39,554 bases of DNA, taken from assembly GCA_036491125.1 (NCBI GenBank), contig DASXCO010000181.1, forward strand, positions 72,486 through 112,039. Reading direction: 5' to 3'. Position numbers and translations under genes: made by a program. How positions within the stretch are numbered: the stretch's first letter is position 1; every line of letters starts with the position of its first letter. The notes beneath the pieces were generated by a model that had not been told where the DNA came from, searched no databases, and was given only the letters and a program-made list of their open reading frames with translations. Source of the stretch: Acidimicrobiales bacterium (GTDB lineage Bacteria > Actinomycetota > Acidimicrobiia > Acidimicrobiales > AC-9). Positions 9,324 to 30,993 of this stretch are shown piece after piece.

Positions 9324-9611
9324 ATGTCAATTCAGCCCCAAGCACCAGGTGGCCGTGTTCGTCTGTGTCCGTGGCCCACGAGTCGGCCGCCGGGTCTACG
9401 GCCTGTCGCATTCACGCCCCCTCCCTCGTTTGGTTCGCGCATTGTTGCTACTGGATCTCCCCCAGCAGTCGCTGCTGATCGGGCTACGGAACGGGCCGAC
9501 GAGGTTCGCCAAGGGGAACAATCCATCTTCGGGACTGCCAAGACGATTGGCGAGGCGATAGACGAACTCCGCGACACGGCTGAGGGGCTACGTCCGACGG
9601 GGTCGTCGTGA
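9324..9611 (+). CDS. Small hypothetical protein coupled to the LAL regulator
   Basis: A 95-codon frame whose TGA (9609-9611) overlaps the GTG start (9608) of the downstream regulator in a GTGA junction, a common sign of translational coupling. AGGAG lies only 2 bases before the ATG, closer than usual. The first half is Pro/Arg-rich and resembles an out-of-frame translation; the last ~45 residues (DRATERADEVRQGEQ, TIGEAIDELRDTAEGL) look like amphipathic helices. No family is recognised. It could be a true leader gene or only the C-terminal remnant of one. Confidence 0.4.
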   Translation: MSIQPQAPGGRVRLCPWPTSRPPGLRPVAFTPPPSFGSRIVATGSPPAVAADRATERADEVRQGEQSIFGTAKTIGEAIDELRDTAEGLRPTGSS

Positions 9612-11860
9612 ACTCGGCCATTGTGCACGGGGCGACTGAGCGAAGGATCGAGAGCAATCGACCCTGTGTGCCTCTACTCTCCAAGCTCCGTTCTCCCGTC
9701 TTTGGGCACGGTGTGATCGATCGCTCAAGGATGATCCACATCCTGGAGAGGCAGAGAAAATCCTCCGTCGTTATCGTCGCGGCCCCGGCGGGCTACGGCA
9801 AGACGACCATCCTGGCCCAGTGGGCCGCACGCGACCCCCGGCCTGTCGCCTGGCTCCAGCTCGACGAACACGACAACGACACCGTGACGCTGATGGCCTA
9901 TGTCGTGCTGGCCCTGCGGCAGGTGGCTGAGCTCGATCCGAAGATTGATGAATGGTTGATCACCAGGACTCCGCCCATGAGCGACCTCATCCTTCCCACT
10001 CTGGCCAACGACCTTTCTGCAGCTGATCCATTCCTCTTTGTTCTGGACGACACCCACGTGCTGACCGGAGAGAGTTCGTGGTCGATCGTGCAGTTCTTGG
10101 TGGAGCATCTCCCACCAAGCTCACAGATCGCGCTCGGAGGCAGGGTCGACCCTCCGGTATCGCTCGGAAGGATGGCAACCAATGGGCGCCTGGTCGAGGT
10201 GCGCTCTGCAGACCTTGCCTTTCGGAACGGGGAAGCCGAGAGCATGCTGGCCGAGGGCGGCCTCCACCTCGAGGAGACGGCGTTGAGGATGCTCCTGGCC
10301 CGAACCGAGGGGTGGGCGGCCGGACTCCAGCTGGCGATGCTCTATCTGCAGAATCGCGGCGATCCCGCTGCCCTGGCCGACTTGCACGGCGGCGTGGGCC
10401 ACATCCCGGACTACCTAGCCCATGAGGTACTGGCCGGTCTGCCGCTCCGGATCAAGCGCTTCCTTCTTCGAACCTCGGTGCTGGAGCGGCTGAGCACTGA
10501 GTCGTGCAACGCGGTCATGGGCCATCGTGGCTCGGGCGAGATCCTCGCAGAGCTCGAGCGGTCAAACGTCTTCCTCACCAGACTCGACGAGAGAGGGAAG
10601 TGGTACCGATACCACTCGCTCTTCGCCGAGTGGCTCCGGACCCAGCTCGAACGGGACTCGCCGGAGGCCATCCCCGAGCTCCATCGAAAGGCAGCAGCCT
10701 GGTATCGGTCGAAGGGTATGCCCGAGGACGCCTTTGAGCATTGGCTGGCGGCAGGCGACGTAGAACAGGCTGGGGAACTTGTGGCTCGCCACTTCCGGAC
10801 CTGGGCGATGGGTGGACGGACCGAGACAGTGCTGCGATGGTTCAGCGCCTTTGACGAGGAGCAGATCCTCGCATACCCGCAGTTGGCGCTGGCAGGGGCC
10901 TGGTTCGCCGCAGCACTGGGGCATTCCCAGACGGCGGCTACGAGACTTGCGGCCGCAGAACGGGGTGATCCACAGGCTCCGTCGCTCGAAGGTGCGGCCA
11001 CGTTCGGCTCGGCCCTGCTCACGCTTCGCGCCCTCCTCGGACAACGAGGTGTGGGCGCACTGCACGGTGACGCCGAGGCCGCCTACCAGCTCGAGCGTTC
11101 GGTTGGAGGCGCCTTGGAGGCCACCGCTGCATGCCTGGCGGGAGCTGGTCGGCTCCTTAGTGAACGTGACATCTCTGGGGCGCGGACGTTGCTCGAGGAG
11201 GCGGCGGCGCTGGGTCGCGAAGGTGAGCCAAGTGCCCGAGTGGGATCCCTCGGACTGCTGGCCCTCATCGCCGCTCAGTGCGACCAGTGGGATGAGGCGG
11301 CGAAGCTGGCTACCGTCGCACAAAGGGTCGTGGAGCAACACAAGCTCTCGAATCTGAGCTTAATTGCCTGTGTCTATGCGATGGTCGCCCTGGTGGAGAG
11401 TCACAGGGGCGACGTGGATTCAGCACATACCAACCTTGATCTCGTTGGGCAAATGCTCGCTGGGCTGGCACCCTACCCGTGGATCGCGGCGCTCGTGGCC
11501 ACCATCATGGCTTGGTCGGCCGTAGAGATCGAAGAGATCAAGAAAGCTAGAGCCTTGCAACGAGAGGCGGCTCTTGCGGCTGGGAAGCTGCCAGACGCTG
11601 GCCTTCTTGTGGAGTGGATCGACGAACTTCGGAGAAGGGTAGGGGCTGAGACCGGGCACGGTCCCGCACTCACTCCATCAGAACTTCGGGTCCTACAGGA
11701 GTTGACCACCTTCCGGTCAGTCTCTGACACCGCACGAGATCTCCTTGTATCCACGAACACAGTGAAGTCCCATCTGAAGTTGGTCTACAGGAAGCTTGGG
11801 GCGAGCTCGAGGGCTGAGGCGATAGAGCGAGGCCGAAGAATGGGCTTACTCGAGCGGTGA
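9608..11860 (+). CDS. LAL-type LuxR family transcriptional regulator (MalT-like)
   Basis: A 750-residue regulator of the STAND/MalT type. After a PLLSKLRSP N-terminal motif it has Walker A APAGYGKTT (about 59-67), AWLQLDEHDND (sensor/Walker B region of MalT-like NTPases), FLFVLDDTH (about 143-150), and the RTEGWAAGLQLA segment diagnostic of LuxR-family ATPases (about 235-247). The middle (about 390-680) is a helical TPR-like repeat region. The C-terminal HTH (about 686-745) reads LTPSELRVLQEL, then STNTVKSHLKLVYRKLGASSR. Such proteins activate adjacent operons upon ligand binding. It lies 402 bp upstream of, and on the same strand as, the ACP-LuxE-LuxC operon, its most likely target (inference). 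GTG 9608 gives a GTGA overlap with the preceding small ORF. Confidence 0.93.
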   Translation: MNSAIVHGATERRIESNRPCVPLLSKLRSPVFGHGVIDRSRMIHILERQRKSSVVIVAAPAGYGKTTILAQWAARDPRPVAWLQLDEHDNDTVTLMAYVVLALRQVAELDPKIDEWLITRTPPMSDLILPTLANDLSAADPFLFVLDDTHVLTGESSWSIVQFLVEHLPPSSQIALGGRVDPPVSLGRMATNGRLVEVRSADLAFRNGEAESMLAEGGLHLEETALRMLLARTEGWAAGLQLAMLYLQNRGDPAALADLHGGVGHIPDYLAHEVLAGLPLRIKRFLLRTSVLERLSTESCNAVMGHRGSGEILAELERSNVFLTRLDERGKWYRYHSLFAEWLRTQLERDSPEAIPELHRKAAAWYRSKGMPEDAFEHWLAAGDVEQAGELVARHFRTWAMGGRTETVLRWFSAFDEEQILAYPQLALAGAWFAAALGHSQTAATRLAAAERGDPQAPSLEGAATFGSALLTLRALLGQRGVGALHGDAEAAYQLERSVGGALEATAACLAGAGRLLSERDISGARTLLEEAAALGREGEPSARVGSLGLLALIAAQCDQWDEAAKLATVAQRVVEQHKLSNLSLIACVYAMVALVESHRGDVDSAHTNLDLVGQMLAGLAPYPWIAALVATIMAWSAVEIEEIKKARALQREAALAAGKLPDAGLLVEWIDELRRRVGAETGHGPALTPSELRVLQELTTFRSVSDTARDLLVSTNTVKSHLKLVYRKLGASSRAEAIERGRRMGLLER

Positions 11861-12262: not shown

Positions 12263-12505
12263 TTGAACCTCGACAAAACCAAGTCGATATTCCTTGAAGT
12301 CCTCGACCTGCCGCCAGACGTCGACCTGTACTCGATCCGCTTCGCCGAGGTCGAAACGTGGGACTCCCTTGCGCACATGGTCCTCGTCGGCGAGCTCGAG
12401 GAGCAGTTCGACGTCATGCTCGACACCGACGATGTCTTGAACATGTCGGACCTCAAAATGGCTGTGAAGATCCTAGAGAAGTTGGGCGTTGATTTCACTT
12501 CTTGA
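12263..12505 (+). CDS. Acyl carrier protein
   Basis: An 80-residue ACP. FLEVLDLPPDVDLYSIRFAE leads into EVETWDSLAHMVLVGELEEQ, where the Ser of the WDSLAHM motif is the 4'-phosphopantetheine attachment site, followed by acidic helix III residues (FDVMLDTDDVLNMSDL). The chosen start is TTG 12263, because GCGGAGA lies 4-5 bases before it and it gives the usual ACP length; an in-frame ATG at 12212 would add 17 residues. It would carry an acyl group as a thioester for the enzymes encoded downstream. It overlaps the next gene by 17 bases. This is a specialised ACP of an accessory operon, not the fatty-acid-synthase ACP (inference from context). Confidence 0.9.
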   Translation: MNLDKTKSIFLEVLDLPPDVDLYSIRFAEVETWDSLAHMVLVGELEEQFDVMLDTDDVLNMSDLKMAVKILEKLGVDFTS

Positions 12506-13241
12506 GTCGAAGGTGGCTGTTGTGACTGGGGCCACAGATGGCATCGGGTGGGCCACTGCTCAAATGCTCGCAGAGTGCGGGGCGACGGTAGTGCTTAACG
12601 GACGGAAAAGCGACGAGCGGTTACACGAGCGAGCTGAGCAGCTGTCGGTCGTATCCAAGCAACCCGTGAGAGCGATCGGTGCCGACGCTCGTAGCCCAGG
12701 CGAGGTGACTGAGCTGTACCGGAACGTGCACTCGATGCACCGGCGACTGGATGTCCTGGTGGCCAACGCTGGTGTGCTCGGTGACGGCCGCATTGGCATG
12801 ATCGCAGAGGAGATGCTCGACGACACGCTCCAGACCAACCTGTGCGGAGCCATCCGCCACATTCAATCGGCAGCACGCCTAATGACACGGGGCAAGAGTG
12901 GTTCAATCATCGCAATGAGCTCGATCATCGGTGTCCGGGGCAATGAGGGACAGGTCGTCTACGCGGCGTCGAAGGCCGGCATCATCGGCGTAGTCCGGTC
13001 TGCTGCTAAGGAGTTGGCGCGTCATGGCATCCGAGTAAACGCTCTTGCGCCCGGATACATCGACACGAAGATGATCAGCCACCTCCCTACTAATGTGCAC
13101 GAGGACCGTCTCAGGTCGATCCCCCTGGACAGACCGGGTACTGCTCGCGAGGTGGCAACCTGCGCCGCGTTCCTGGCCAGTGACCTCGCGTCCTATGTCA
13201 CTGGCCAGGTGCTAGGCGTCGATGGCGGGATGGCAATCTGA
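12489..13241 (+). CDS. FabG-like short-chain reductase (3-oxoacyl-ACP reductase type)
   Basis: A 250-residue classical SDR with NAD(P)-binding TGATDGIG (about 13-20), NAG motif VANAGVLGDG, catalytic Ser144 (AMSSIIG), Tyr158 and Lys162 (VVYAASKAG), and the C-terminal FLASDLASYVTGQVLGVDGG typical of FabG. Next to an ACP gene, a role in reducing a 3-oxoacyl-ACP to 3-hydroxyacyl-ACP is likely, but the substrate may be another ketone. The start TTG 12489 lies inside the ACP gene with GAGAAG ~9 bases upstream, consistent with coupled translation. Length is normal for FabG. Confidence 0.9.
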   Translation: MISLLESKVAVVTGATDGIGWATAQMLAECGATVVLNGRKSDERLHERAEQLSVVSKQPVRAIGADARSPGEVTELYRNVHSMHRRLDVLVANAGVLGDGRIGMIAEEMLDDTLQTNLCGAIRHIQSAARLMTRGKSGSIIAMSSIIGVRGNEGQVVYAASKAGIIGVVRSAAKELARHGIRVNALAPGYIDTKMISHLPTNVHEDRLRSIPLDRPGTAREVATCAAFLASDLASYVTGQVLGVDGGMAI

Positions 13242-13245
13242 CGTT

Positions 13246-14631
13246 ATGGTGCTGAACGAGACCGCCCGAGACCGCACAGCTCTCTTCGACGCCGATTCAG
13301 GGCGATCGTTGACCTACCGGGCACTCGCCGCTGAGGTGGAGAAGACCAGGCTCGCCCACAACGGCATTCGCCCCGGCCAGCTGCTCTTTCTCCCAATACG
13401 GGCTCGCTTCGAAGACGTCCTTCTCTACTTGGCGGCGCTCGATGCGGGCTGCACTGTCGCGCTCCTAGACCCAGAGCAGTACAACACCCATGGAGCTCGG
13501 CTCGAAGCTGCGTATAGCCCAGATCTGTTGGTGCGACCGCCCACTAGTCATGACCCGTACCTGCTCGAACCTGAGAGTGCTATCGACCGTCGCCTGTGGG
13601 TGCGCCAGGGAACGGATGATCTGAACGCGGATACTGCCGTTCTCCTACCCACTTCGGGCAGCACCGGCAGCCCTAAGCTCGTTCGCCTGAGCTCCGAGGC
13701 ATTGCTCGCCAATGCTCATGGGATCCGCGAGTGTCTCGCCATCAGCGATTCTGACGTGGCCATCGCCAACCTGCCACTTCACTACTCGTACGGCCTCTCC
13801 GTGCTCAACAGCCATCTCGCCGCTGGCGCGACCGTTGTGCTCACGGAGACAAGCGTGCTGCAGCCCGAGTTCTGGGAGATCATGGCCGAACATGGCGTAA
13901 CAACACTGGCGGGAGTGCCCTACTCATACGACTTGTACCGGCGCGTTGGGCTGTTGGAACGCCCGCTTCCAGCTCTGTGCACTCTCACGCAGGCGGGCGG
14001 ACGCATGGCGCCCGAACGCATCCTCGAATTCCAGGCCGGCATCACGGCGCGCGGTGGCCGGATGTACGTGATGTACGGTCAGACCGAAGCCACGGCTCGC
14101 ATGTCGGTGCTCGACCCCAATGACCTCCCCGAGTACGTGGGCTCCGTTGGGACTCCCCTACGTGACGGCAAGTTCGAGATCCGCAACGCCGCCGACGACG
14201 GTACCGGCGAGGTCATCTACTGCGGTCCCAACATCATGTTGGGCTACGCGGAGACACGAGATGACCTCAACAAGGGCGATGAGCTATGTGGCGTTCTCGA
14301 AACCGGTGACCTCGGGAGGCTTGACCTGGCAGGCCGCCTCTGGATCGTCGGGCGCACAAAGCGGATCGCGAAGCTCTTCGGCGAACGCGTGAGCCTTGAC
14401 GACGTCGAGGACTTGCTCGTCGAGGAAGGCCCGACCGCCGTTGTTGATGCCGGCGATCAGATCATCCTCTATTGCGAGTGGGGAGAGGGGGAGCGCTTCT
14501 CGGTCGTCCGTCGCGCACTGGCTCGTGAGTTGGGCACGAACCCGAAGGCCTTCGATTTCCGGCGTGTGGAGAGGATCCCGCGGAGACTCAATGGCAAGGT
14601 GGCTTATGGCGAGCTACGAGACCGTCTCTGA
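13246..14631 (+). CDS. AMP-forming acyl-CoA/acyl-ACP ligase family protein
   Basis: An ANL-superfamily adenylating enzyme of 461 residues. Seen: P-loop-like PTSGSTGSPKLV (about 135-146), the YGQTEAT core motif (~282), TGDLGRLDLAGRLWIVGR (Asp binding the ribose), and a C-terminal domain ending NGKVAYGELR with the adenylation Lys (~451). It should activate a carboxylic acid as acyl-AMP and pass it to a thiol; with an ACP in the operon, acyl-ACP ligase is the best guess. The SDR stop is 4 bp upstream of ATG 13246; an earlier in-frame ATG (13222) is possible. The size is smaller than fatty acyl-CoA synthetases and closer to aryl/short-acid ligases. Confidence 0.9.
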   Translation: MVLNETARDRTALFDADSGRSLTYRALAAEVEKTRLAHNGIRPGQLLFLPIRARFEDVLLYLAALDAGCTVALLDPEQYNTHGARLEAAYSPDLLVRPPTSHDPYLLEPESAIDRRLWVRQGTDDLNADTAVLLPTSGSTGSPKLVRLSSEALLANAHGIRECLAISDSDVAIANLPLHYSYGLSVLNSHLAAGATVVLTETSVLQPEFWEIMAEHGVTTLAGVPYSYDLYRRVGLLERPLPALCTLTQAGGRMAPERILEFQAGITARGGRMYVMYGQTEATARMSVLDPNDLPEYVGSVGTPLRDGKFEIRNAADDGTGEVIYCGPNIMLGYAETRDDLNKGDELCGVLETGDLGRLDLAGRLWIVGRTKRIAKLFGERVSLDDVEDLLVEEGPTAVVDAGDQIILYCEWGEGERFSVVRRALARELGTNPKAFDFRRVERIPRRLNGKVAYGELRDRL

Positions 14632-15712
14632 GCTGAGCGACAGCTTCTTGGAGCGATCGACATATGGCATTCGACAAGATCACAAGGAGGCTGCTCTCGC
14701 TCCGGCGCTTCACGACCTCACGCGCCACCACGCAGGCAACTGCCCTGATTATGGCCGCATGGTTGGCGCCGCCTACCCGGGTTGGGAAAGCGGCTCTGGA
14801 TTGGGCGCGGTTCCCTTCATTCCAATCTCCATGTTCAAACAACGGTCGCTAGGAAGCGTGCCCGAGTCGGCGATCTTCAAGACGCTGACGTCGAGTGGCA
14901 CGACCGGATCCGAGGTGAGCCGAATCTTGCTCGATCGTCCGACAGCGCAACGTCAGACGCGAGCGCTGGCGTCGGTGATGCGGCACATCCTTGGCGTCGA
15001 GCGGCGACCGATGCTGATCATCGACTCGTCGTCGATTCTCAGAGATCGCAAGCAGTTCAGTGCTCGCGGCGCCGGAATTGTCGGCCTGATGAACTTCGGT
15101 CGAAACCACACCTATCTACTCGACAGCGCCTTTCGCCCGGACGCGGACAGATTGGAAGAGTTCGCTACGAAACACCGAGGTGAGGCGATCTTCATTTTCG
15201 GGTTCACCTTCATGGTGTGGCGGCACCTGATCAAGGATCTGGCGGCAACTCCTCTCGACCTGAGCAACGCTGTCCTGGTGCACAGTGGCGGCTGGAAAAA
15301 GCTCGAGGAGGAACGCGTGGACAACGGGGAGTTCAGGCGAGTTCTCGCCGAAGGGTTCGGCATCAGACACGTCTACAACTTCTACGGCATGGTCGAGCAG
15401 GTGGGAGGTGTGTTCATCGAAGGCGACGACGGACTGCTTCATCCCCCAGCCTTTGGGGATGTCATCGTTCGTCATCCTCGCACGTGGAAGGAGCAGCCCG
15501 TCGGAGAAGAGGGGGTGCTTCAGGTTGTGTCAGTACTCCCGACGAGCTACCCCGGGCACTCGGTCCTTACTGAAGATCTCGGCGTCGTGGAGGCGATCGA
15601 CTCTTCGGCGACTGCCCATCTCGGCAAGGCCTTTCGAGTCGTGGGTCGGGTTCCCCAGGCGGACTTGCGAGGCTGCAGCGACACGTACGCGTCCATGTTG
15701 TCGGCGGCCTGA
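14606..15712 (+). CDS. LuxE-like acyl-protein synthetase
   Basis: A 368-residue protein of the LuxE/PaaK-like family. It shows the adenylation motif LTSSGTTGSEVSR (about 94-106), preceded by VPFIPISMFKQ, a segment conserved in LuxE, and VYNFYGMVEQVGG near residue 255, a YGxTE equivalent. In bioluminescence LuxE activates a fatty acid with ATP and transfers the acyl group to the LuxC reductase; the same pairing is present here (LuxC follows with one-base overlap). There is no luciferase. ATG 14606 is preceded by AAGGTGG and lies 26 bases inside the previous gene; an in-frame ATG at 14591 is an alternative. The substrate acyl group is unknown. Confidence 0.88.
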   Translation: MASYETVSELSDSFLERSTYGIRQDHKEAALAPALHDLTRHHAGNCPDYGRMVGAAYPGWESGSGLGAVPFIPISMFKQRSLGSVPESAIFKTLTSSGTTGSEVSRILLDRPTAQRQTRALASVMRHILGVERRPMLIIDSSSILRDRKQFSARGAGIVGLMNFGRNHTYLLDSAFRPDADRLEEFATKHRGEAIFIFGFTFMVWRHLIKDLAATPLDLSNAVLVHSGGWKKLEEERVDNGEFRRVLAEGFGIRHVYNFYGMVEQVGGVFIEGDDGLLHPPAFGDVIVRHPRTWKEQPVGEEGVLQVVSVLPTSYPGHSVLTEDLGVVEAIDSSATAHLGKAFRVVGRVPQADLRGCSDTYASMLSAA

Positions 15713-16965
15713 TGCTCGATCAGGTGGTGTCGTCTGGAGAGCCGGTGGAAGTGGAGGTCCTTGCCGGCCGCCTGCGCAGCGCCGCCCCAACTGGTCCCTT
15801 CTCCGAGGTCACTCGCTCCCTCCTAAGGGAATTCTCCAAGCGACTACGCGCTCATCCGGCGGCAAAGGCTTACCCAGAGGTGCAGGCGCTGGCCTTCTCG
15901 ATCAGGCCTGCGTGGATCAACGAACTACACCGTGAGTGGGACCGTCTGGCCGATGACTTCAGCGTGCTGGTACCCCGCGGGCTCGCCTTCCACGTTCCTC
16001 CCGGTAACGTCGACACGGTGTTCATCTACTCGTGGGCCCTGTCCGCGCTGGTTGGGAACACGAACGTCGTCCGCCTCCCGTCGACTGCCACGGATCAGGT
16101 GAACGTGATCTGCGAGGTGCTCGGTTCTGTGCTGGAGAGCGACGAGTTCACGTCACTACGGCCCACCGCTGCCTTTGTGCGCTACGGGCACGATGATGAT
16201 GTGACCGCGGCGCTATCGAAGCTTGCCGACGTCCGCGTCGTATGGGGTGGCGACGAGACGGTATCCCGGATCCGAAGGCTCCCACTGAGCCCGGCAACCG
16301 TTGAGATGACCTTTCCGGATCGGTTCTCCCTCGTCGCATTCGATGCCCCAACGGTCACGAGACTCGGAGACTCGGATGTCAACTGGGTCGGACGCGCCCT
16401 GTACAACGACGTTTACTGGTTCAACCAACTCGGCTGCTCGTCACCGCGGCTCGTGATCTGGCGTGGTGAGGCGGAACAGTGCATCGTTGCTCGAGATCGC
16501 GTGTACCAAGCTGTCGTCAGGGCGTGTGACGAGCGGGGCTACGAGACACCACTGAGCGCCCATCTCGCCAAGCTCGGCTTCGCCTTCAACCTCGCCGCCG
16601 AAGGGTCCGCGACCAGCATTCGGTATTTCTCCAACGAAGCAACCGTGGTGGAGCTCTGCGACCTGTCAGCGGTGCGCCGCACGAGCCCCGGTGGAGGATT
16701 CTTCCTCGATGTGCGAGTCGACACGCTTCTGGACCTCGTCGACTTCGTGGCGCGGAAAGATCAAACGCTGACGCACTTTGGGTTTGAACGAGCTGACCTC
16801 GTCGAGCTGGTGGCGGCACTCAACGGGCGCGGGATCGACCGCTTGGTCCCGGTCGGACAAGCGATGACATTCAGCCGCTACTGGGATGGGTACGACTTGC
16901 TACAAGCCTTCAGCCGACGAGTCCAGGTCCTCGACGTTCACCGAGCCGCACCAGCAAACTCATGA
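15712..16965 (+). CDS. LuxC-like acyl reductase
   Basis: A 417-residue member of the acyl-CoA reductase LuxC family, distantly related to aldehyde dehydrogenases. RGLAFHVPPGNVDTVFIYSW and LVGNTNVVRLPS are the LuxC-specific nucleotide-binding motifs, and FNQLGCSSPR contains the catalytic cysteine (Cys242) that accepts the acyl group. It would reduce an acyl-enzyme, delivered by LuxE or from ACP/CoA, to the aldehyde with NADPH. The ATG overlaps the luxE-like stop by one base (TGATG) and the end overlaps the next gene as ATGA, so the operon is translationally coupled. Size is slightly below the ~480 residues of Vibrio LuxC. Confidence 0.9.
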   Translation: MLDQVVSSGEPVEVEVLAGRLRSAAPTGPFSEVTRSLLREFSKRLRAHPAAKAYPEVQALAFSIRPAWINELHREWDRLADDFSVLVPRGLAFHVPPGNVDTVFIYSWALSALVGNTNVVRLPSTATDQVNVICEVLGSVLESDEFTSLRPTAAFVRYGHDDDVTAALSKLADVRVVWGGDETVSRIRRLPLSPATVEMTFPDRFSLVAFDAPTVTRLGDSDVNWVGRALYNDVYWFNQLGCSSPRLVIWRGEAEQCIVARDRVYQAVVRACDERGYETPLSAHLAKLGFAFNLAAEGSATSIRYFSNEATVVELCDLSAVRRTSPGGGFFLDVRVDTLLDLVDFVARKDQTLTHFGFERADLVELVAALNGRGIDRLVPVGQAMTFSRYWDGYDLLQAFSRRVQVLDVHRAAPANS

Positions 16966-17630
16966 GCACCGCACCTTCGCGCGTCGTGGTCGTCGGAGCG
17001 GGCGGATTCGGTATCGAAGTTGCGGAGATCGTCGAGGCGGCGTCCCTCCATGGCGGGCCTCGGTTGGCGGGGTTTCTCGACGACGACGAGAGCGCTGCAT
17101 CCCGGGACCTGCCTGCCCCCGTTCTAGGCACGATCGGCACCGCGGACGTTGGGCCAGACGACGGTGTCGTCATCGCAGCGGGTGACCCGCAGATCCGCCA
17201 CGCGCTACGAGGCCAATTCGATCCGAGCGCCCGGTGGTGGACAGTGATTCACCCCACCGCTTCCGTTTCGGCTCGCGCCATGCTGGGGCCAGGGTGCGTT
17301 GTGGCACCGTTCGCCTATGTCGGCCCCGGTGCCCAGGTGGGTGCTCATGTGGCACTCAACATCTACGCAGGTGTCGGCCATGACGCGGTGGTGGGCAATT
17401 TCGCAGTTCTCTCGCCGTACGCAACCCTGAATGGCCACAGCGTGGTCGGCGAGGGAGCGTTCCTGGGTACAGGCTCGGTGTTGACCGTCGGAAAGCGCAT
17501 AGGCGAGTGGTCGAAGCTCGCCGCGGGCGCGATCGCTTTCGGTGACATCGCGTCGAACAGCCTGGCCGCAGGGAACCCTGCGAGGGGCCGGACACTGTAC
17601 GCCGGTCCTCGAGCCACACGCGGGTCGTGA
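16962..17630 (+). CDS. NeuD/PglD-like sugar O/N-acetyltransferase
   Basis: A 222-residue protein with an N-terminal PglD_N Rossmann-like domain (VVVVGAGGFGIEVAEIVE, LAGFLDDDE) and a C-terminal left-handed beta-helix of hexapeptide repeats (about 95-205; GPGCVVAPFAYVGPGAQVGAHV onward). The His of the VGHDAVVGNF segment matches the usual catalytic histidine. Members use acetyl-CoA (or other acyl-CoA) to acylate nucleotide-activated amino sugars in surface glycan pathways. Its presence in the ACP-LuxE-LuxC operon is the strongest direct tie of that operon to glycan making. Overlaps the previous gene (ATGA) and the next gene (GTGA). Confidence 0.88.
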   Translation: MSTAPSRVVVVGAGGFGIEVAEIVEAASLHGGPRLAGFLDDDESAASRDLPAPVLGTIGTADVGPDDGVVIAAGDPQIRHALRGQFDPSARWWTVIHPTASVSARAMLGPGCVVAPFAYVGPGAQVGAHVALNIYAGVGHDAVVGNFAVLSPYATLNGHSVVGEGAFLGTGSVLTVGKRIGEWSKLAAGAIAFGDIASNSLAAGNPARGRTLYAGPRATRGS

Positions 17631-18889
17631 ATCAGATGGGCGACTCGGACAGTGCCGCGTCCCCGGAGAGTCGTGTTGACCGACGCCGGCCCACTTCCCG
17701 GCGCCAGCTGTTCACTCTGGCCGGGGCCGCCGCCATTGGCTCAGCTGGTGCCTCGCTGGCGATGGCGGAGTACCGGCCGACGACAAAGGGGTACGCTGAC
17801 TCGCTGGCCGTGACCGGGCGAACCTTCGTCACGGACACCTCGAGCGCGGGCATCCAAGCGGCAGTGGGTGACGCTCCTGACGGCGGGCTGGTAGTACTTG
17901 CCCCCGGACAGACCTACGGGTTCGATGCAGTCGAGATCGGTGACAAGGCCCTTACACTGGACCTGCGAGGCGCGACGATCGACAGCATGAACGCGGGCCA
18001 CTATGCCCTCCAGCAAACCACGGCCCGCAAGAGGCTGACGGTCCTCGGTGGCGTGTTCACAGGGGCGGGTCACGGCATCCTGTGGAAGATGCCGCCATCC
18101 GACAGCCAGTCCTACGACGTGTCGTTGAGCGACGTGTCCTTCGTGCTCCCCAGCTCGAAGAACGGCCTGACCCTCACCGGCGCCCGTGAGGTCACTATCC
18201 GAGACTGTTACTTCGAGACCTGCACGGGCATCTACATAGTGGCGACAGTCAACTCCCACGTCATGGGCTCCCAGTTCAAGAACTGCACAGCGGCGGTTGA
18301 CTGCGAGGGGACTGGCACCAGCTACGACGCGGGCCTCTTCGTCAACGACGCCACCATGCTTGGCTGCGGTTATGGGATCAAGATCGTGAAATGGGACTAC
18401 TTCAACGTCGCCGACAGCATGATCGATTACTGCTATCGCCCTCTCAACGTGGCGAACACCGTGACGGGCACGGTGAACAACAGCTACCTGACTTGTCCTG
18501 TCAGCATCGGAGGAGTGGCCTATCCCGCTGTCGATATCACTTCGTCAGACCACATCAAGATCGCCAACTGCGTGATCCGCACGCATACCGACCTACCGGT
18601 ACAGTCCCTGGGCATGAGGATCAGCGGCACCCCGCGTACTCAAATCATGCACAATACCATCGACTTCTGGCAGAAGTTCGGCGTCCAGATGGTCGGAGAC
18701 AACGCGTTCACGAGATTCACCGGCAACTACATCCACTCCGTCAGCCCGACGACAGGACCAGCAGCGATCCGCGGGGCGAGCAACGCCTCGGAGTCGTCAT
18801 GGTGCCTGATTGGCAACCAGTTCAGCGACGCGCTGTCCAACGTCCATGCGGACTATACGGACATAGGCAACTACACAGGAGAGGGATGA
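17627..18889 (+). CDS. Tat-exported right-handed beta-helix protein
   Basis: A 420-residue secreted protein. The N-terminus carries a twin-arginine signal (TSRRQLFTLAGAAAIGSAG, about residues 24-42) with likely cleavage near residue 47. The mature part is rich in short beta-strands with Asn/Gly turns (GLTLTGAREVTIRDCYFETC, IKIANCVIRTHTD), the pattern of pectate-lyase-like parallel beta-helix proteins. No catalytic residues can be assigned. It may be a polysaccharide lyase, epimerase or binding protein acting on the exopolysaccharide outside the membrane. GTG 17627 overlaps the acetyltransferase stop (GTGA); ATG 17636 is an alternative. It is the last gene of the operon and faces the exopolysaccharide operon with a 44-bp gap. 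Confidence 0.82.
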   Translation: MNQMGDSDSAASPESRVDRRRPTSRRQLFTLAGAAAIGSAGASLAMAEYRPTTKGYADSLAVTGRTFVTDTSSAGIQAAVGDAPDGGLVVLAPGQTYGFDAVEIGDKALTLDLRGATIDSMNAGHYALQQTTARKRLTVLGGVFTGAGHGILWKMPPSDSQSYDVSLSDVSFVLPSSKNGLTLTGAREVTIRDCYFETCTGIYIVATVNSHVMGSQFKNCTAAVDCEGTGTSYDAGLFVNDATMLGCGYGIKIVKWDYFNVADSMIDYCYRPLNVANTVTGTVNNSYLTCPVSIGGVAYPAVDITSSDHIKIANCVIRTHTDLPVQSLGMRISGTPRTQIMHNTIDFWQKFGVQMVGDNAFTRFTGNYIHSVSPTTGPAAIRGASNASESSWCLIGNQFSDALSNVHADYTDIGNYTGEG

Positions 18890-21187: not shown

Positions 21188-22140
21188 CTCATGATGCCCT
21201 GCGCCGCTGCGGCAGACTCAGTAGTAAACCAGGCGACCGTGCGCCGCAGTCCTTCCTCGAGGCCTACGCTCGGGGTGAATCCGAGACACCTGCTGGCCTC
21301 CGAGATGTCGGCATAGGAGTGCCGAACATCCCCCGCTCTGGGGCCTGCATATTGCGGACTCGTGTCGGCCCCCATGATCTGACGAAGTGACTCCAAGAGC
21401 TCGATCAAGCTATGAGGGTCGCCGCAGGCGATGTTGAAGGCGGCACCACTGCACTTCTCTCTGGGCGCCATTGCCGCGGCGAGGTTCGCTGCCACGACGT
21501 CTTCCACGAATGTGAAGTCGCGGGTCTGCTTGCCGTCGCCGTGTACCACCGGCGGTACCTGAGACCGAAGTGCATCAATGAAGAGAGGGATGACGGCCGC
21601 ATAGCGAGAGTCAGGACGTTGGCGCGGGCCGTACACATTGAAGTAGCGGAGTGAGACGGTAGCGAGACCGTATTGCTCCGCGAAGACACGGCAGTACAGC
21701 TCTCCACCCAGCTTGGACGCGGCATACGGGGACCGAGGATGAAGCCCCGCCGATTCGGGGGTCGGAAGCTGGTTCGCACCCCCGTAGACGCTGCTCGAAG
21801 ACGCAGCCACGACTCGACTGACTTCGGCATCCAACGAGGCCTTGAGCACAGTCAACGTCCCGTGGATGTTCGCGACGTCAGTGCTGAGCGGGTCCTCAAC
21901 TGACTGGAGCACAGCACGGTGTGCGGCTTGGTGGAACACGACGTCGATACCGTCTACGACGTCTGAGACGATGCCCATGTCGGCGACGTCGCCCTTGACG
22001 AACGTAGCTCGACCATCGACGTTTTCCAGGTGTCCAGAGGACAGGTCATCCAGCACCCGGACCTCGTGGCCAGAGTCGAGCATGGCACGCACCAAGTGGC
22101 TGCCGATGAACCCAGCACCTCCGGTAACGAGCGACTTCAT
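21184..22140 (-). CDS. NAD-dependent epimerase/dehydratase (UDP-sugar 4-epimerase-like)
   Basis: A 318-residue extended SDR. GGAGFIG (about 7-13) binds NAD; the S-x-x-x-Y-x-x-x-K set appears as SSSSVYGG and SPYAASK. RYFNVYGPRQRPDSRYAAVIP is the substrate-binding segment of GalE/WbpP-type UDP-HexNAc 4-epimerases. ATG 22140 was preferred to an upstream in-frame start (22158) because it forms an ATGA overlap with the previous gene and starts MKSLVTGG as is usual. With the neighbouring UDP-sugar dehydrogenase it could interconvert UDP-GlcNAc/GalNAc or their uronates. Precise specificity is not readable. Confidence 0.9.
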   Translation of the reverse strand: MKSLVTGGAGFIGSHLVRAMLDSGHEVRVLDDLSSGHLENVDGRATFVKGDVADMGIVSDVVDGIDVVFHQAAHRAVLQSVEDPLSTDVANIHGTLTVLKASLDAEVSRVVAASSSSVYGGANQLPTPESAGLHPRSPYAASKLGGELYCRVFAEQYGLATVSLRYFNVYGPRQRPDSRYAAVIPLFIDALRSQVPPVVHGDGKQTRDFTFVEDVVAANLAAAMAPREKCSGAAFNIACGDPHSLIELLESLRQIMGADTSPQYAGPRAGDVRHSYADISEASRCLGFTPSVGLEEGLRRTVAWFTTESAAAAQGIMR

Positions 22141-23798
22141 GACGCAGCTCGAGACCATCTCGTCATGCGAGGCCCGGTAGTGGTAGCTCGCCTGCGCCTT
22201 CTCTGATGCAGAGCGCGGAGCCTGCGTACTCCAGCAAGCACCGATACTCGGTTGCGATACGAATCGAACACAAGCTGGTCTCGATAAAAATTCAGAGTAT
22301 GTGGACCGCGCTGGTGCCCCAGACGTATCTCGCCGAGAAGGACCTCACTGTAACGATCTGGGGTCAGGACATGGACTTCGAAGGCGATCAGTCCGTCTCC
22401 ATAGCCGGATGTGGATGTTTGCCCGAATCTGATAAGCCGCTTGTCAAGCTTTAGCAGACCACCACCCATTCGAGACCCTTGCGGAGAAATTCTGACTGGG
22501 CTGGCTGGGTGAAGATCGAAGTGTCCATCAATGGAGCTCGAGGACCATAGGAAAAGGGCGCCGTTCCCGACGGACGGGATATTTCCGAAGAGATAGAACC
22601 TCCCCTCGTGCTCGGCCAGCGTAGGATCCACAACGGGCGTCGAGCCTGCTATCGACAGCTCCTTCTGCTCGACCATGCGCTTGTCCTCGAGGCCGTAGAT
22701 GATTGGCGAGGACCAGCTGGCAACTTCCGGAAGAATGAACTCGGACCCACGTAGGCTGATAGTGCAAGGATAGGAGTAGTGCGCCCCGCTGTTGTTTGAT
22801 AGACGACGCTGCCCGTCGTCTGACACGAGCAGGATTTCTCCCAAGCCCGTTCGCCTATTTACGGCTTCAACGACGACCCCGCCTAGCCCCTCGCTGAAGA
22901 AGGGGTCGGCGAAGAAGAGTTGGGACCGTGTGACTGGTAGCGTCCTCCAATCGCGCGGGGACGGGAAGGGTCGACCCGTGATTACTGCTTCGACTCGATC
23001 GGGCGAGCAGTTCGCCAGAGAGACATTCCACCTCTTCTCGACGAACGCCCCGTAGCAGAGGCGCTTGAGGAGGCTGAAGGCCATCATGAACAGCAGGCTC
23101 ACGACGGCCGTGTTCGACGGGAGGGCGCAATTCTCTCTAGGGATGGTGGCTGGGACTGATCTGCCGAAACAGACATTCTCGACCGCTTCTTGGAGAAGGA
23201 AGGGCGAGTGTCGGTAGGCCTCTATGAGAGTCGCCCGTAGTGAGTGAGCATACACACGGGTTTCGGCAAAAGCGGCGCATGTTGCGTCATCCGCATTATT
23301 CGTGAGGACCCTGACCATCTGGCCCATGGTTGATTCGCCGTGGACCACTTCCCAAAATCCCTCAGACGCGCCGGGGTGGCGTTCCGGGCCACTGTAGTGA
23401 TAGGAGATGATGGGCGGCAGCTTTGGTTCCTGGGGCAATGTCAACAGGCCCATCCCGAGCTTGACGACCACATCGAAGCCGGCGGTCGAAAGGTCCGTCA
23501 GGACCGTGGCAGGAAACGACTGCCGAGCACCTTCATGCTGGGACTCGAACGTGATCGTTCGAGCGATCCGCTTGGTGCCCGTGGTAACGGGCACACGTGC
23601 CGTCATCGGGTTGCGCATGGTCAACCGGCTCAAGGCGTGATGGGCAGCGTGCTGTCGTGGCGGACGCGTTCTGCGGCTGTTGGAGCAGGAGAGAACCGTG
23701 ATCTCGTCGCAACTCGTGACCGAATTCAGAGCTTCAAGGCCAAACCTCGGGACCTGGCCCTGATCAGTTATCACAGCGAGCTTCACTCCGAGCATCAC
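22137..23798 (-). CDS. Formyltransferase-like domain fused to a GINT1-N-like beta-propeller
   Basis: A 553-residue two-part protein. Residues ~1-225 look like a formyltransferase-type domain: LGVKLAVITDQGQVPRF start, FDVVVKLGMGLL, then ISYHYSGPERHPG and FWEVVHGESTMGQMVRVL, placed like the formyl-donor and catalytic segments of Met-tRNA and sugar formyltransferases; the usual H-x-S-L-L-P motif is replaced by YHYSGPE. Residues ~270-520 form a beta-rich region with SQLFFADPFFSE, DPTLAEHEGRFYLFGN and GGLLKLDKRLIRFGQ, resembling the five-bladed propeller domain in glucosamine inositolphosphorylceramide transferase-like proteins. Role unknown: acyl or glycosyl transfer to the glycan is possible. 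Ends in an ATGA overlap with the epimerase. Confidence 0.7.
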   Translation of the reverse strand: MMLGVKLAVITDQGQVPRFGLEALNSVTSCDEITVLSCSNSRRTRPPRQHAAHHALSRLTMRNPMTARVPVTTGTKRIARTITFESQHEGARQSFPATVLTDLSTAGFDVVVKLGMGLLTLPQEPKLPPIISYHYSGPERHPGASEGFWEVVHGESTMGQMVRVLTNNADDATCAAFAETRVYAHSLRATLIEAYRHSPFLLQEAVENVCFGRSVPATIPRENCALPSNTAVVSLLFMMAFSLLKRLCYGAFVEKRWNVSLANCSPDRVEAVITGRPFPSPRDWRTLPVTRSQLFFADPFFSEGLGGVVVEAVNRRTGLGEILLVSDDGQRRLSNNSGAHYSYPCTISLRGSEFILPEVASWSSPIIYGLEDKRMVEQKELSIAGSTPVVDPTLAEHEGRFYLFGNIPSVGNGALFLWSSSSIDGHFDLHPASPVRISPQGSRMGGGLLKLDKRLIRFGQTSTSGYGDGLIAFEVHVLTPDRYSEVLLGEIRLGHQRGPHTLNFYRDQLVFDSYRNRVSVLAGVRRLRALHQRRRRRATTTGPRMTRWSRAAS

Positions 23799-27783: not shown

Positions 27784-29159
27784 CCCGTGACCCGCATTGT
27801 GTCAGGCTGCTGTTGCTGTTCGGCGGCTGGCGCTCCAGGTGAACGCGACAGCAAGTTGGGCGATTGTCTCGAGAAGATGACAAGGCTGGCGAGAATCCAT
27901 GTAGCCGTCCCGAGCCAAAACACCTGGAACGTGAAGATGCTGCTGAAAAGGACTCCTACCCAGACCGCTCCCAACGACGTCCACAGAGCAGTACGGCGCT
28001 TGCGGGCAAGAGCATCTAGGACCACTGAGACGGCACCGAGCAAAATTCCCTCGCCAATGATGCCGGCGACGCCGAAGTCGTAATAGGCATCGCCCACCCA
28101 CGTATAGACGTTGTAGCTGTACGGTATCTGCACGAACTGAGCAACGGTGTTCGGAACTTGCACCCGTGAATCGACAAGTTGCGCGACCCGGGGGACGATC
28201 CAGATGGTGCGCAGACTTGGGCCTGCGGCGGGGTCTCGGTGGCTGTCCAACGCCTGACTGAGAGCAACGGGAGCGCCAGTGAAGAAGAGAGTCGTCGGCA
28301 CCAGGGAGCTCGGAAGCGGTGATGCGTCCAGCGTCGCTATGTGCTGTGTCTTGTTCAGTACCACTTCCTGGTGATGGAAGTAGAGTAGGCCACCGATTGC
28401 CGCCAGGGCAGCGATCGTGACTCGCCAGACGCTGTACCGGCGCCGACCTCGGCGCGATGTGTACAACCAGGTAATTAGCGCTGCAACAGCCGTGATGTAG
28501 GTCAAGGTCCGAGCCGGATCGGTGGTTATCAGCACCAATGCCAGGATCGTGAACGCGTAGCCCCATACGATACGCCGACCAAGAATGACGCCCCCACAGG
28601 CGATGACTGGCGCGAGACTGACGAATATACCTGAGAGACTAGAATTTGCGTTTCCGTGCTCGCTCAAATAGAGGACCTGCTGGGGCTCGAGTGAAGAGAA
28701 CCCTGACCCTCCACCGGCTGCAGCGCTGATCGAGTTGCGGAAGATGAAGACGCCATAGACGAAGAGGATCGTCGCTATGAGCAGAAAGACCGTCAGGCGG
28801 ACTGTGGAGGAATCGGGGTGAGTGGGGTTGTGGTCCTCGTTGGAGCGCAGTCGCCGGGCAAGCTCTTGCCCCCCCAAGCATCCCAGGAAGACCGCCCCGA
28901 GTCCCAGGGCGAGGAGCCCAGCTCCCCGTGCGGTCAGGGGTCGCAGATGGAGAAGGTTCGGTACGAGGGACAGCAAGATGACGGTCCACAACGCGAAGTA
29001 CATGACCACGGGATGAAGCCACCGACGGAGGACGGCGGCCGATGCGACGGTCAGGAAGGCGCCGAGGATCGCTAAGGCAATGGCGGGGGTCATCTTCGCC
29101 GACTCCGCCGGTAGTTCGTACCGGGCACCCACTGCGGGCTTACGGTCCTCATCACGCAA
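27780..29159 (-). CDS. O-antigen/exopolysaccharide polymerase (Wzy-like)
   Basis: A 459-residue protein with about 10-12 predicted membrane segments (e.g. IALAILGAFLTVASAAVLR, LLALGLGAVFLGCLGG, LTVFLLIATILFVYGVFIF) and a large outside loop near residues 270-360 containing VPRVAQLVDSRVQVP and YNVYTWVGDAYYDFG. The latter is like the conserved loop motif of oligosaccharide repeat-unit polymerases. Such proteins join flipped repeat units on the outer face of the membrane. Sequence identity in this family is low, so the call rests on topology, the YDFG motif and operon position between the aminotransferase and GT2 genes. ATG 29159 overlaps the aminotransferase end by 8 bases; ATG 29093 is an alternative. 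Confidence 0.8.
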   Translation of the reverse strand: MRDEDRKPAVGARYELPAESAKMTPAIALAILGAFLTVASAAVLRRWLHPVVMYFALWTVILLSLVPNLLHLRPLTARGAGLLALGLGAVFLGCLGGQELARRLRSNEDHNPTHPDSSTVRLTVFLLIATILFVYGVFIFRNSISAAAGGGSGFSSLEPQQVLYLSEHGNANSSLSGIFVSLAPVIACGGVILGRRIVWGYAFTILALVLITTDPARTLTYITAVAALITWLYTSRRGRRRYSVWRVTIAALAAIGGLLYFHHQEVVLNKTQHIATLDASPLPSSLVPTTLFFTGAPVALSQALDSHRDPAAGPSLRTIWIVPRVAQLVDSRVQVPNTVAQFVQIPYSYNVYTWVGDAYYDFGVAGIIGEGILLGAVSVVLDALARKRRTALWTSLGAVWVGVLFSSIFTFQVFWLGTATWILASLVIFSRQSPNLLSRSPGAPAAEQQQQPDTMRVTG

Positions 29160-30300
29160 GCCTCTTGGAGGACATCTGTGGAGCCAGATGGAGAATGGCG
29201 TCGACGACGCGCTCTATGTCGCTATCTGACATGTTCGAGCCGCTCGGCAAGCAGAGCCCCTTCGAGAAGATCCGTGATGCCACCTCGCCTCCTCTGGCGG
29301 AAGATCCCGCGTAGAGCGGCTGCAGGTGCATCGGCTTGAGGATGGGACGGGCCTCGATGTCGTCGCCAGCCAGAAAGTCGATGACGTCGTCGCGAGACGC
29401 GCCAAAGACAGCGGGATCGATCATTAGGCAGGTCAGCCACGACGTGGGGATGCCATAGTGAGCGTCCGGCATGAAGTGGACGCCGGGGAGCTCATCCAGG
29501 GCGGCACGATATTCGGCATTGATCGCCCGCCGGCGGGCAACCCGCTTCGCGAGTGTCTTCAACTGCGCGCGACCGAGGGCGGCCAGGATATTGCTCATGC
29601 GATAGTTGTATCCGACCTCGTTATGCTCGAAGTGCAACGCAGGCAGGCGGGCCTGGTTTGACAGGTGTCGCGCACGCGCCATTGGTACCTCGTCGTCGGA
29701 TACGAGCATCCCCCCACTACTTGTGGTGATGATCTTGTTGCCATTGAAGGAGAACGCGGCCAGGTCGCCCAACTTGCCAGCCGGCCGATTTCTGTACGTT
29801 GCCCCTAGGGCTTCGGCAGCGTCTTCGATGATCGCAACACCGTATGGTTCGCAGCATGAGCGTATTGCGTCATAATCGGCGCATTGTCCGTACAGGTCGA
29901 CCGACAGCACAGCTTTGGGCTGTCGACCGCGCCTTGCCCTCGCGGCAAGCTCTTCTGCGAGCAAGGTGGGATCGAGAGTCCAAGTATCCGGACTGCTGTC
30001 GATGAACACTGGTTGGGCCCCCACGTAGCGGACCGCGTTGGCGGTGGCGACGAAGGTCAAGGTCGGCACAACGACCTCGTCCCCAGGCCCGACGCCCGCG
30101 ACCAAGAGGGCAAGGTGCAAAGCAGCCGTACCGCTCGACAGCGCCAAAGCGTGATCAGTTCCAACGGTGTCGGCAAACTCGGTTTCGAAAGCGTCGACGT
30201 GCGGACCGAGCGGCGCCACCCAGTTCGAGGCGAGGGCATCGAAGACGAGGCGGCCTTCCTCGTCCCCGAGATGCGGCGGAGAGAGGTAGATGCGCGTCAC
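29152..30300 (-). CDS. DegT/DnrJ/EryC1/StrS family sugar aminotransferase
   Basis: A 382-residue PLP enzyme. IYLSPPHLGDEEGRLVFDAL is the standard N-terminus of PglE/WecE-like aminotransferases; ALSSGTAALHLAL, PTLTFVATANAV and IIEDAAEALGA are PLP-binding motifs, and Lys189 in AFSFNGNKIITT forms the Schiff base. It transfers an amino group from glutamate to a 4-keto (or 3-keto) nucleotide sugar, fitting with the 4,6-dehydratase encoded upstream to make a 4-amino-4,6-dideoxy sugar (inference, as in PglF/PglE). Start is GTG 30300, 60 bp after the sugar transferase. A 23-codon relic of a second copy lies at 32733-32801. Confidence 0.94.
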   Translation of the reverse strand: MTRIYLSPPHLGDEEGRLVFDALASNWVAPLGPHVDAFETEFADTVGTDHALALSSGTAALHLALLVAGVGPGDEVVVPTLTFVATANAVRYVGAQPVFIDSSPDTWTLDPTLLAEELAARARRGRQPKAVLSVDLYGQCADYDAIRSCCEPYGVAIIEDAAEALGATYRNRPAGKLGDLAAFSFNGNKIITTSSGGMLVSDDEVPMARARHLSNQARLPALHFEHNEVGYNYRMSNILAALGRAQLKTLAKRVARRRAINAEYRAALDELPGVHFMPDAHYGIPTSWLTCLMIDPAVFGASRDDVIDFLAGDDIEARPILKPMHLQPLYAGSSARGGEVASRIFSKGLCLPSGSNMSDSDIERVVDAILHLAPQMSSKRLA

Positions 30301-30360: not shown

Positions 30361-30993
30361 TCACCCCGGATTCGCAACATCGCCCGTTGCCAGAGGATCA
30401 TCGAGGTTGGTGGCCTCGAGACCAGAGCCCCGCAAAACTGCCGAGGCCGTGGAGGCCAGGATCGACAGATCGAGTGCGATGGACTGCCGATCGATGTATT
30501 CGAGGTCCAACCTGATTCGCTCCGACCAATCCAGCGTGTTCCGGCCCCGTACTTGTGCCAGCCCGGTGAGGCCGGGGCGGCTCGCAAGGCGTCCTCGTTG
30601 CCGCTGGGTGTAGCAGCGGACCTGAAGAGCCAGTGCCGGTCGCGGCCCGACGATGCTCATATCGCCGCGGGCGATGTTCAGCAGCTGAGGTAGCTCGTCA
30701 AGGGAAAGGCGACGCAGGAGCCGGCCGACCGGCGTGATCTCGTCTGGCGTGGGGAATAGCGAATTGTCGGGACGATCGAACATTGTGCGGAGCTTGTAGA
30801 GGCGAAACGACCGCCCGCCGAGGCCCACACGCTCCTGACGGAACAGTATCGGTCCGGGCGACGACAGTCGCACTGCGAGCGCGCACACCCCACCGAGCAG
30901 CAGGGCGGGCAGGCCGACGCCGATCAGCACCGTCCAGTCAAGGGCGCGCTTTCCCCGGTACGCCACCTTTTCGGGAAAGATGTCGGTAGCCAT
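30361..30993 (-). CDS. Sugar transferase, WcaJ/PglC-like (copy A)
   Basis: A 210-residue initiating phosphoglycosyltransferase. One membrane helix (about 20-42) leads to PGPILFRQERVGLGGRSF, LYKLRTM, RRLSLDELPQLLNIARGDMSIVGPRP and PGLTGLAQVRGRN, the motifs of bacterial sugar transferases; the catalytic Asp-Glu pair is in LDELPQ. It moves a sugar-phosphate from UDP/GDP-sugar to undecaprenyl phosphate, the first step of repeat-unit assembly. It is closely related to the protein at 33837-34514 (long near-identical motif blocks). It follows the tyrosine-kinase gene by 7 bp. Confidence 0.93.
   Translation of the reverse strand: MATDIFPEKVAYRGKRALDWTVLIGVGLPALLLGGVCALAVRLSSPGPILFRQERVGLGGRSFRLYKLRTMFDRPDNSLFPTPDEITPVGRLLRRLSLDELPQLLNIARGDMSIVGPRPALALQVRCYTQRQRGRLASRPGLTGLAQVRGRNTLDWSERIRLDLEYIDRQSIALDLSILASTASAVLRGSGLEATNLDDPLATGDVANPG

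Follow-up and report, generated by a model that had tools for sequence, protein, structure and literature searches.

We have identified a seven-gene operon that probably serves as a donor module for an unusual N-acylation, of a short-hydroxyacyl type, of a 4-amino sugar in a surface polysaccharide. The operon occupies positions 12263–18889 of a 39,554-nt stretch of contig DASXCO010000181.1 (assembly GCA_036491125.1, Acidimicrobiales bacterium); this whole stretch, called the window below, is part of a 3.8-Mb, 96%-complete draft genome. Five of the genes, coding for an acyl carrier protein (ACP), a short-chain dehydrogenase (SDR), an AMP-forming ligase and members of the LuxE and LuxC families, make up a cassette that recurs in other bacteria, and the window operon is a NeuD-coupled, non-flagellar variant of this known cassette. 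The seven open reading frames (ORFs) were confirmed as follows (E-values in brackets):

12263–12505, + strand: acyl carrier protein, 80 aa (PF00550, 7.8e-5; TTG start behind GGAGA)
12489–13241, + strand: FabG-like short-chain dehydrogenase (PF13561, adh_short_C2, 2e-62; 3oxo_ACP_reduc 2.4e-72, below cut-off)
13222–14631, + strand: AMP-forming acid–(carrier protein) ligase, 469 aa (PF00501, 1.2e-41; PDB relatives)
14606–15712, + strand: LuxE-family acyl-protein synthetase (PF04443, 1.6e-49; PDB 7xc6 chain E, 8.5e-20)
15712–16965, + strand: LuxC-family acyl reductase (PF05893, 9.7e-26; PDB 7xc6 chain A, 8e-5)
16962–17630, + strand: NeuD/PglD/VioB-type hexapeptide N-acyltransferase for 4-amino sugars (NeuD_NnaD, 9.5e-47; Hexapep/PglD_N)
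17627–18889, + strand: right-handed beta-helix protein, predicted to be Tat-exported (PF13229, 3.4e-11; SRRQLF twin-arginine motif)

Neighbouring ORFs overlap or abut throughout. The ACP and SDR genes share 17 bp (12489–12505), the ligase and LuxE genes share 26 bp (14606–14631), and the three junctions that follow read TGATG (LuxE/LuxC, 15710–15714), ATGA (LuxC/NeuD, 16962–16965) and GTGA (NeuD/beta-helix, 17627–17630). The SDR and ligase genes overlap by 20 bp if the ligase starts at 13222 and are separated by 4 bp if the next in-frame ATG is used. An earlier reading of the window made from its letters alone (the sequence-only reading) had proposed an operon of these seven genes. The ORFs, the junctions and the family matches bear it out, with the qualification that the 4-bp gap which it gave between SDR and ligase holds only for the later ATG.

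The catalytic motifs of the predicted enzymes are intact. The ACP retains the phosphopantetheine-site serine (DSL) and, in the alignment, the WDSLAHM motif common to the cassette ACPs; the SDR has TGATDGIG, NAG and YAASK, and the ligase has the A3, A5, A7, A8 and A10 Lys motifs. LuxE, the sole LuxE of its genome, carries the SSGTTG loop and the C-terminal acyl-accepting Cys within RGCSD, while LuxC has a catalytic-type Cys242 in QLGCSSP that is invariant in the LuxC alignment; both cysteines line up with their counterparts in the LuxC–LuxE complex of known structure, 7xc6. NeuD has GHD at 139–141 and GNPA. It scores 159.2 bits against NeuD_NnaD (TIGR03570; cut-off 160.8), exceeds the cut-offs of PF17836 and PF00132, and matches in PDB a Neisseria pilin glycosylation protein (4e-19), VioB (1.2e-18) and PerB (2.4e-11). 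As the single full-length NeuD_NnaD match of the genome, it is also the only full-length candidate there for a PglD function.

The five-gene set recurs beyond what chance would produce. With profiles of the LuxE and LuxC families we collected 31 further loci from genomes other than those of E. coli. The loci were picked by LuxE or LuxC similarity, not as a random sample, and close relatives occur among them (a Motilimonas pair and a Rhizobium pair), so the counts that follow are not counts of independent events. All five genes are on the same strand and no more than 9 kb from LuxE in 25 of the 31 loci, and 21 have the exact order ACP-SDR-ligase-LuxE-LuxC; the window operon likewise has the five genes on one strand in this order. 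The cassette is present in Actinobacteriota (L005, L018, L019), on a Deinococcus plasmid (L004), in Alphaproteobacteria (Ponticoccus, L006; Rhizobium, L007 and L008) and in Gammaproteobacteria (Motilimonas and others). The GCSD motif is found in 33 of 33 cassette LuxE proteins, the window's among them. In the LuxE tree the window protein pairs with that of the Deinococcus cassette (97/95), and this pair groups with the three proteins from Actinobacteriota (97/94). Proteins of the lux and Rfb types lie outside the cassette group, although the branch separating the whole group is weak (8/0). As to deviating layouts, L064 and L075 have no detectable SDR between ACP and ligase, a Maf-like stretch separates ligase from LuxE in L075 and L069, and L065 (genome G1052, 4.5–15.9 kb) has two LuxE-LuxC pairs in a 12-kb stretch, one of them with ACP and SDR, the ligase being undetected.

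The distribution of the cassette is patchy, which suggests horizontal transfer. A LuxC search found it in none of 58 relatives of the window genome; it is present in one of 296 genomes of the class (the window itself), in three of 396 genomes of the phylum, window counted, plus one distant LuxE, and, as read from a band of LuxC scores, in some 35 of the 316 genomes from the order of Motilimonas, where the LuxE subfamily stands alongside LuxC in 22 of the 22 loci fetched. A contig scan with LuxC alone, which needs near-exact peptides, returned Motilimonas only. A phage origin was considered and rejected: 50,697 phage records contained no LuxC, and viral contigs contained no LuxE relative.

As judged from family matches, the recurring neighbour of the cassette is an N-acyltransferase for 4-amino sugars. 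In 18 of the 31 loci, which are gammaproteobacterial, a PseH-type GNAT adjoins the cassette upstream, usually after NeuB, the common order being NeuB-PseH-ACP-SDR-ligase-LuxE-LuxC. Seven more have NeuD (L004, L007, L008, L066 and L079) or another hexapeptide enzyme (beside L018 and L019); these neighbourhood counts come from tblastn with a small set of query proteins, which divergent acyltransferases would escape. On the Deinococcus plasmid all six genes, with NeuD among them, follow the order of the window and come immediately after a sugar transferase. Most of the 31 loci stand beside NeuB/PseH, DegT, PglF, RmlA/B or glycosyltransferase genes. The neighbourhood survey that the sequence-only reading had called for thus finds homologous cassettes mostly in glycan loci and not, for the most part, far from them. 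That reading had named either an acyl group or its aldehyde as the product; the recurrence of an N-acyltransferase beside the cassette favours the acyl donor.

We consider it unlikely that the aldehyde itself is the product, from which condensation or amination would give an unusual sugar or small molecule, with NeuD performing plain N-acetylation. The Rhizobium plasmid cassettes, which have a transketolase of two subunits, a DegT aminotransferase and FabZ for neighbours, would suit C–C bond formation on an aldehyde, but no transketolase was seen in the other annotated loci, and it is ACP, ligase and N-acyltransferase that accompany the cassette constantly. On these plasmids (L007, 4.1–16.3 kb, and L008) LuxE-LuxC, ACP, ligase and NeuD are also accompanied by a GMC oxidoreductase and lie beside a siderophore receptor; the two loci may represent a different pathway, one that condenses the LuxC aldehyde.

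It seems quite improbable that NeuD and the five-gene cassette share an operon and no function, NeuD making a 4-N-acetyl sugar with acetyl-CoA. Enzymes of the NeuD/PglD type are mostly acetyl-CoA dependent, and the Ponticoccus and Nonomuraea cassettes have no NeuD nearby. Yet LuxC and NeuD are translationally coupled through ATGA, the six-gene order is the same in Deinococcus, and NeuD adjoins the ACP in L066, L079 and Rhizobium. The window enzyme resembles PglD, VioB, PerB and NeuD in family, in the GHD motif and in having PglF and PglE partners; it differs from them in its coupling to a dedicated ACP and acid-processing genes, which suggests a donor other than acetyl-CoA.

The glycan genes to the right run towards the operon on the other strand (the beta-helix gene ends at 18889 and the next gene at 18934), so they are neighbours and not part of the same transcript. 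The locus codes for glycosyltransferases, an NAD-epimerase, a UDP-sugar dehydrogenase, a Wzx-type flippase, a DegT aminotransferase, two initiating sugar transferases and a PglF-like dehydratase. The DegT, PglF-like and PglC/WbaP-like enzymes are presumed partners of the operon:

29152–30300, − strand: DegT aminotransferase resembling PglE/LegC/perosamine synthetases (TIGR04181, 6e-111; PDB 1o61, 4e-78)
34501–36501, − strand: PglF/WlaL-like membrane-anchored UDP-HexNAc 4,6-dehydratase (PF02719, 8e-91; PDB 5bju, WlaL, 2.7e-67)
30361–30993, − strand: PglC/WbaP-like initiating sugar-phosphate transferase (PF02397, 9.3e-52; TIGR03025, 3e-64)
33837–34514: paralogue of the PglC/WbaP-like transferase (PF02397, 4.3e-55)

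With a PglF/WlaL-like dehydratase, a PglE/LegC-like aminotransferase and the sole full-length NeuD, the UDP-4-amino-sugar pathway would therefore be complete, its acylating last step being encoded in the operon of the ACP. The sequence-only reading had placed a full Wzx/Wzy locus beside the operon; Pfam confirms the Wzx-type flippase, while the 459-aa ORF taken for Wzy has no Pfam match. Two similar initiating transferases in one locus may start two different glycans. A match to GINT1_N, the N-terminal domain of glucosamine inositolphosphorylceramide transferase, at 22137–23798 is unusual for a bacterial glycan locus.

There is neither NeuB nor flagellin in the 96%-complete genome, which makes it very unlikely that the operon serves pseudaminic acid or flagellin there. 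This bears on the known occurrences of the cassette. Exactly these five genes (coding for ACP, 3-oxoacyl-ACP reductase, AMP synthetase, LuxE and LuxC) are described for Aeromonas Group II flagellin islands, as orf1-orf3, luxE and luxC, termed the ‘fatty acid’ block (PMC7874193); another report gives the same gene families for flagellin-glycosylation islands of >70 enterobacterial strains (PMC4875605). Hence the phrase ‘undescribed system’ of the sequence-only reading does not survive at the level of the gene set. The Aeromonas and Enterobacteriaceae blocks share with the window the five families and, in the loci scanned, the order ACP-SDR-ligase-LuxE-LuxC. They differ in setting: theirs is behind pseH in a pseudaminic-acid flagellin island, whereas the window cassette has NeuD as partner and adjoins a Wzx/PglF/PglE polysaccharide locus. 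Given that NeuB and flagellin are both missing from the window genome, the cassettes do not have flagellin as a shared target; what the window has in common with the pseudaminic-acid islands is 4-amino-sugar N-acylation. The Shewanella sfm cluster was rejected as a relative, as it consists of different genes (PMC3765264).

From homology, the authors of the Aeromonas and enterobacterial studies proposed a fatty or lipid component for these islands (PMC7874193, PMC4875605). In such a route a long-chain acyl group would be converted to an aldehyde and become a lipid part of the glycan (a ‘liposugar’). The conserved catalytic cysteines of LuxE and LuxC agree with it, and these families and Cys positions (GCSD, QxGCSSP) are indeed what the window shares with the LuxCDE fatty-acid reductase. 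However, LuxE reaches 63 of 550 bits and LuxC 25 of 750 bits against the long-chain lux models, the operon has no gene for a LuxD thioesterase, ACP, ligase and SDR are added, relatives of the cassette accompany a sugar N-acyltransferase, and the available part of the literature on these islands reports no lipid-modified glycan. We regard the lipid route as an unlikely explanation. The low lux-model scores, with the lack of luxAB and luxD in the operon (by ORF calls and Pfam families), also led us to reject a remnant of bioluminescence. The operon was said by the sequence-only reading to be without luciferase, and no luciferase gene was found among its ORFs; the genome has 41 luciferase-like monooxygenases of PF00296, a family not specific for LuxA/B, all outside the window.

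The closest precedent is the tetronate module of Vibrio cholerae O1, and the window operon may well work like one. In that organism the 4-amino sugar perosamine is acylated with tetronate (2,4-dihydroxybutanoate), the group attached being 3-deoxy-L-glycero-tetronyl, with a dedicated carrier protein and an AMP ligase of ∼470 aa feeding the N-acylation (PMC12208996, PMC3441752). The genes are VC0248–VC0252 (RfbK-RfbO/WbeK-WbeO), and the 471-aa ligase WbeL/RfbL activates tetronate and putatively loads it on CoA or on the carrier RfbK. The window has a counterpart to this pair in its 80-aa ACP and 469-aa ligase. We take RfbM to be an iron alcohol dehydrogenase (Fe-ADH), RfbN a LuxE/LuxC-type protein and RfbO a hexapeptide acyltransferase; these roles reportedly stem from the putative tetronate pathway of Morona et al. 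in 1995. A LuxE/LuxC-type reductase and a hexapeptide acyltransferase would then be common to both systems. The matching architecture is seen in the operon of L061, which codes for an ACP (77 aa), a ligase (473 aa), an Fe-ADH (374 aa) and a LuxE:LuxC fusion (825 aa) next to Wzz, a glycosyltransferase, PglF, DegT, NeuB and NeuD; four further genomes of one genus have the fusion. We compared the window with the Vibrio module through the L061 proteins, at 21–34% identity. The window LuxE is closer to the fusion (34%, 6e-57, 187 bits) than to bioluminescence LuxE (74 bits), and the ACPs are 27% identical. Because the L061 architecture matches and LuxE is closer to the fusion than to its bioluminescence relative, we infer the tetronate logic for the window with SDR in place of Fe-ADH. 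An Fe-ADH and a LuxE:LuxC fusion like those of L061 were looked for in the window operon and are absent, so we do not file it as an Rfb-type tetronate module. In L032 and L033 (genomes G1096 and G987) a LuxE of 380 aa is followed by LuxC within ORFs of 811 and 806 aa, longer than plain LuxC, as in a LuxC fusion.

In the pathway that we propose, LuxE would adenylate the carboxyl of a small acid and bind the acid to its own Cys in thioester form; LuxC would take over the acyl group and reduce it to the aldehyde with NAD(P)H; and the SDR would reduce the aldehyde to the alcohol, giving a short hydroxyacid such as the 4-carbon 2,4-dihydroxybutyrate or 4-hydroxybutyrate. The ligase would load this hydroxyacid on the dedicated ACP, from which the NeuD/PglD-type transferase would move the acyl group to the 4-amino group of a UDP-sugar. 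The PglF-like and PglE-like enzymes encoded in the neighbouring locus would produce this UDP-sugar from UDP-HexNAc, the PglE-like DegT enzyme supplying the 4-amino group, and the acylated sugar would enter a Wzx-dependent surface polysaccharide. We infer which acid and which sugar are involved, in what order these steps run, and that NeuD draws on ACP instead of CoA. The proposal of an ACP-bound acyl for a surface glycan was already made in the sequence-only reading, and a glycan-directed acyl pathway is still the best reading.

A mass known from Aeromonas offers a weak lead to the acid. In A. piscicola AH-3, a Group II strain whose cassette follows pseH, a moiety of 102 Da and a pseudaminic derivative of 376 Da have been reported; dihydroxybutyryl (C4H6O3) is computed at 102.03 Da, and Pse5Ac7Ac with one acetyl swapped for C4H6O3 at 376.15 Da. 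The match fits and is not proof.

Several observations weigh against the donor-module reading. A. hydrophila AH-1 also carries a 376-Da label, and it appears not to belong to Group II as the glycosyltransferases between its pse genes are missing; the 376-Da match is kept as a lead only on this account. C4H6O3 equally fits the isomeric O-methylglyceroyl. The usual dependence of NeuD/PglD enzymes on acetyl-CoA counts here too, and no neighbouring acyltransferase was detected in six of the 31 loci. The Vibrio-type module has a non-homologous Fe-ADH and a fused LuxE:LuxC where the window has an SDR and separate proteins, and the identities to the L061 counterparts are low for the ligase (23%) and LuxC (21%). 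With the SDR undetected in L064 and L075, the reduction assigned to it may not be needed or may be carried out by an enzyme encoded elsewhere. The structure model of LuxC (from three sequences) is too poor for use, with pLDDT of 40, and the literature yielded no substrate, product or mutant for any five-gene cassette.

More generally, we tentatively suggest that the cassette could be a widespread, mobile ‘reductive acyl-donor module’, in which LuxE and LuxC, families originally known from bioluminescence, turn a carboxyl into an alcohol across phyla for rare hydroxyacyl-ACP donors of N-acylated nucleotide sugars. On the strength of homology, it has so far carried the label ‘fatty acid synthesis’ or ‘bioluminescence’ in many bacteria. 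Tying it to 4-amino-sugar N-acylation offers a single function, open to testing, for loci of three kinds (flagellin islands, O-antigen-like loci and exopolysaccharide loci). It also adds another way of making rare decorations of surface sugars, of the kind recognised by phages and hosts, and a glycan mass that has long gone unexplained becomes a specific prediction. As the cassette recurs in many distant bacteria, one experiment could explain all of them.

Two further genes flank the six discussed above. The beta-helix protein, which the sequence-only reading had counted in the pathway, has no homologue in the related loci scanned; it was therefore rejected as a pathway member and is probably a passenger outside the conserved cassette. 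Its AlphaFold model (single sequence) has pLDDT of 40 and is too poor for use. Directly upstream of the operon, on the same strand, lies a gene for a MalT-like LuxR-family protein, a possible regulator of the operon:

9608–11860, + strand: MalT-like LuxR-family regulator (PF00196, 5e-10; PRK04841 3e-91, below cut-off)

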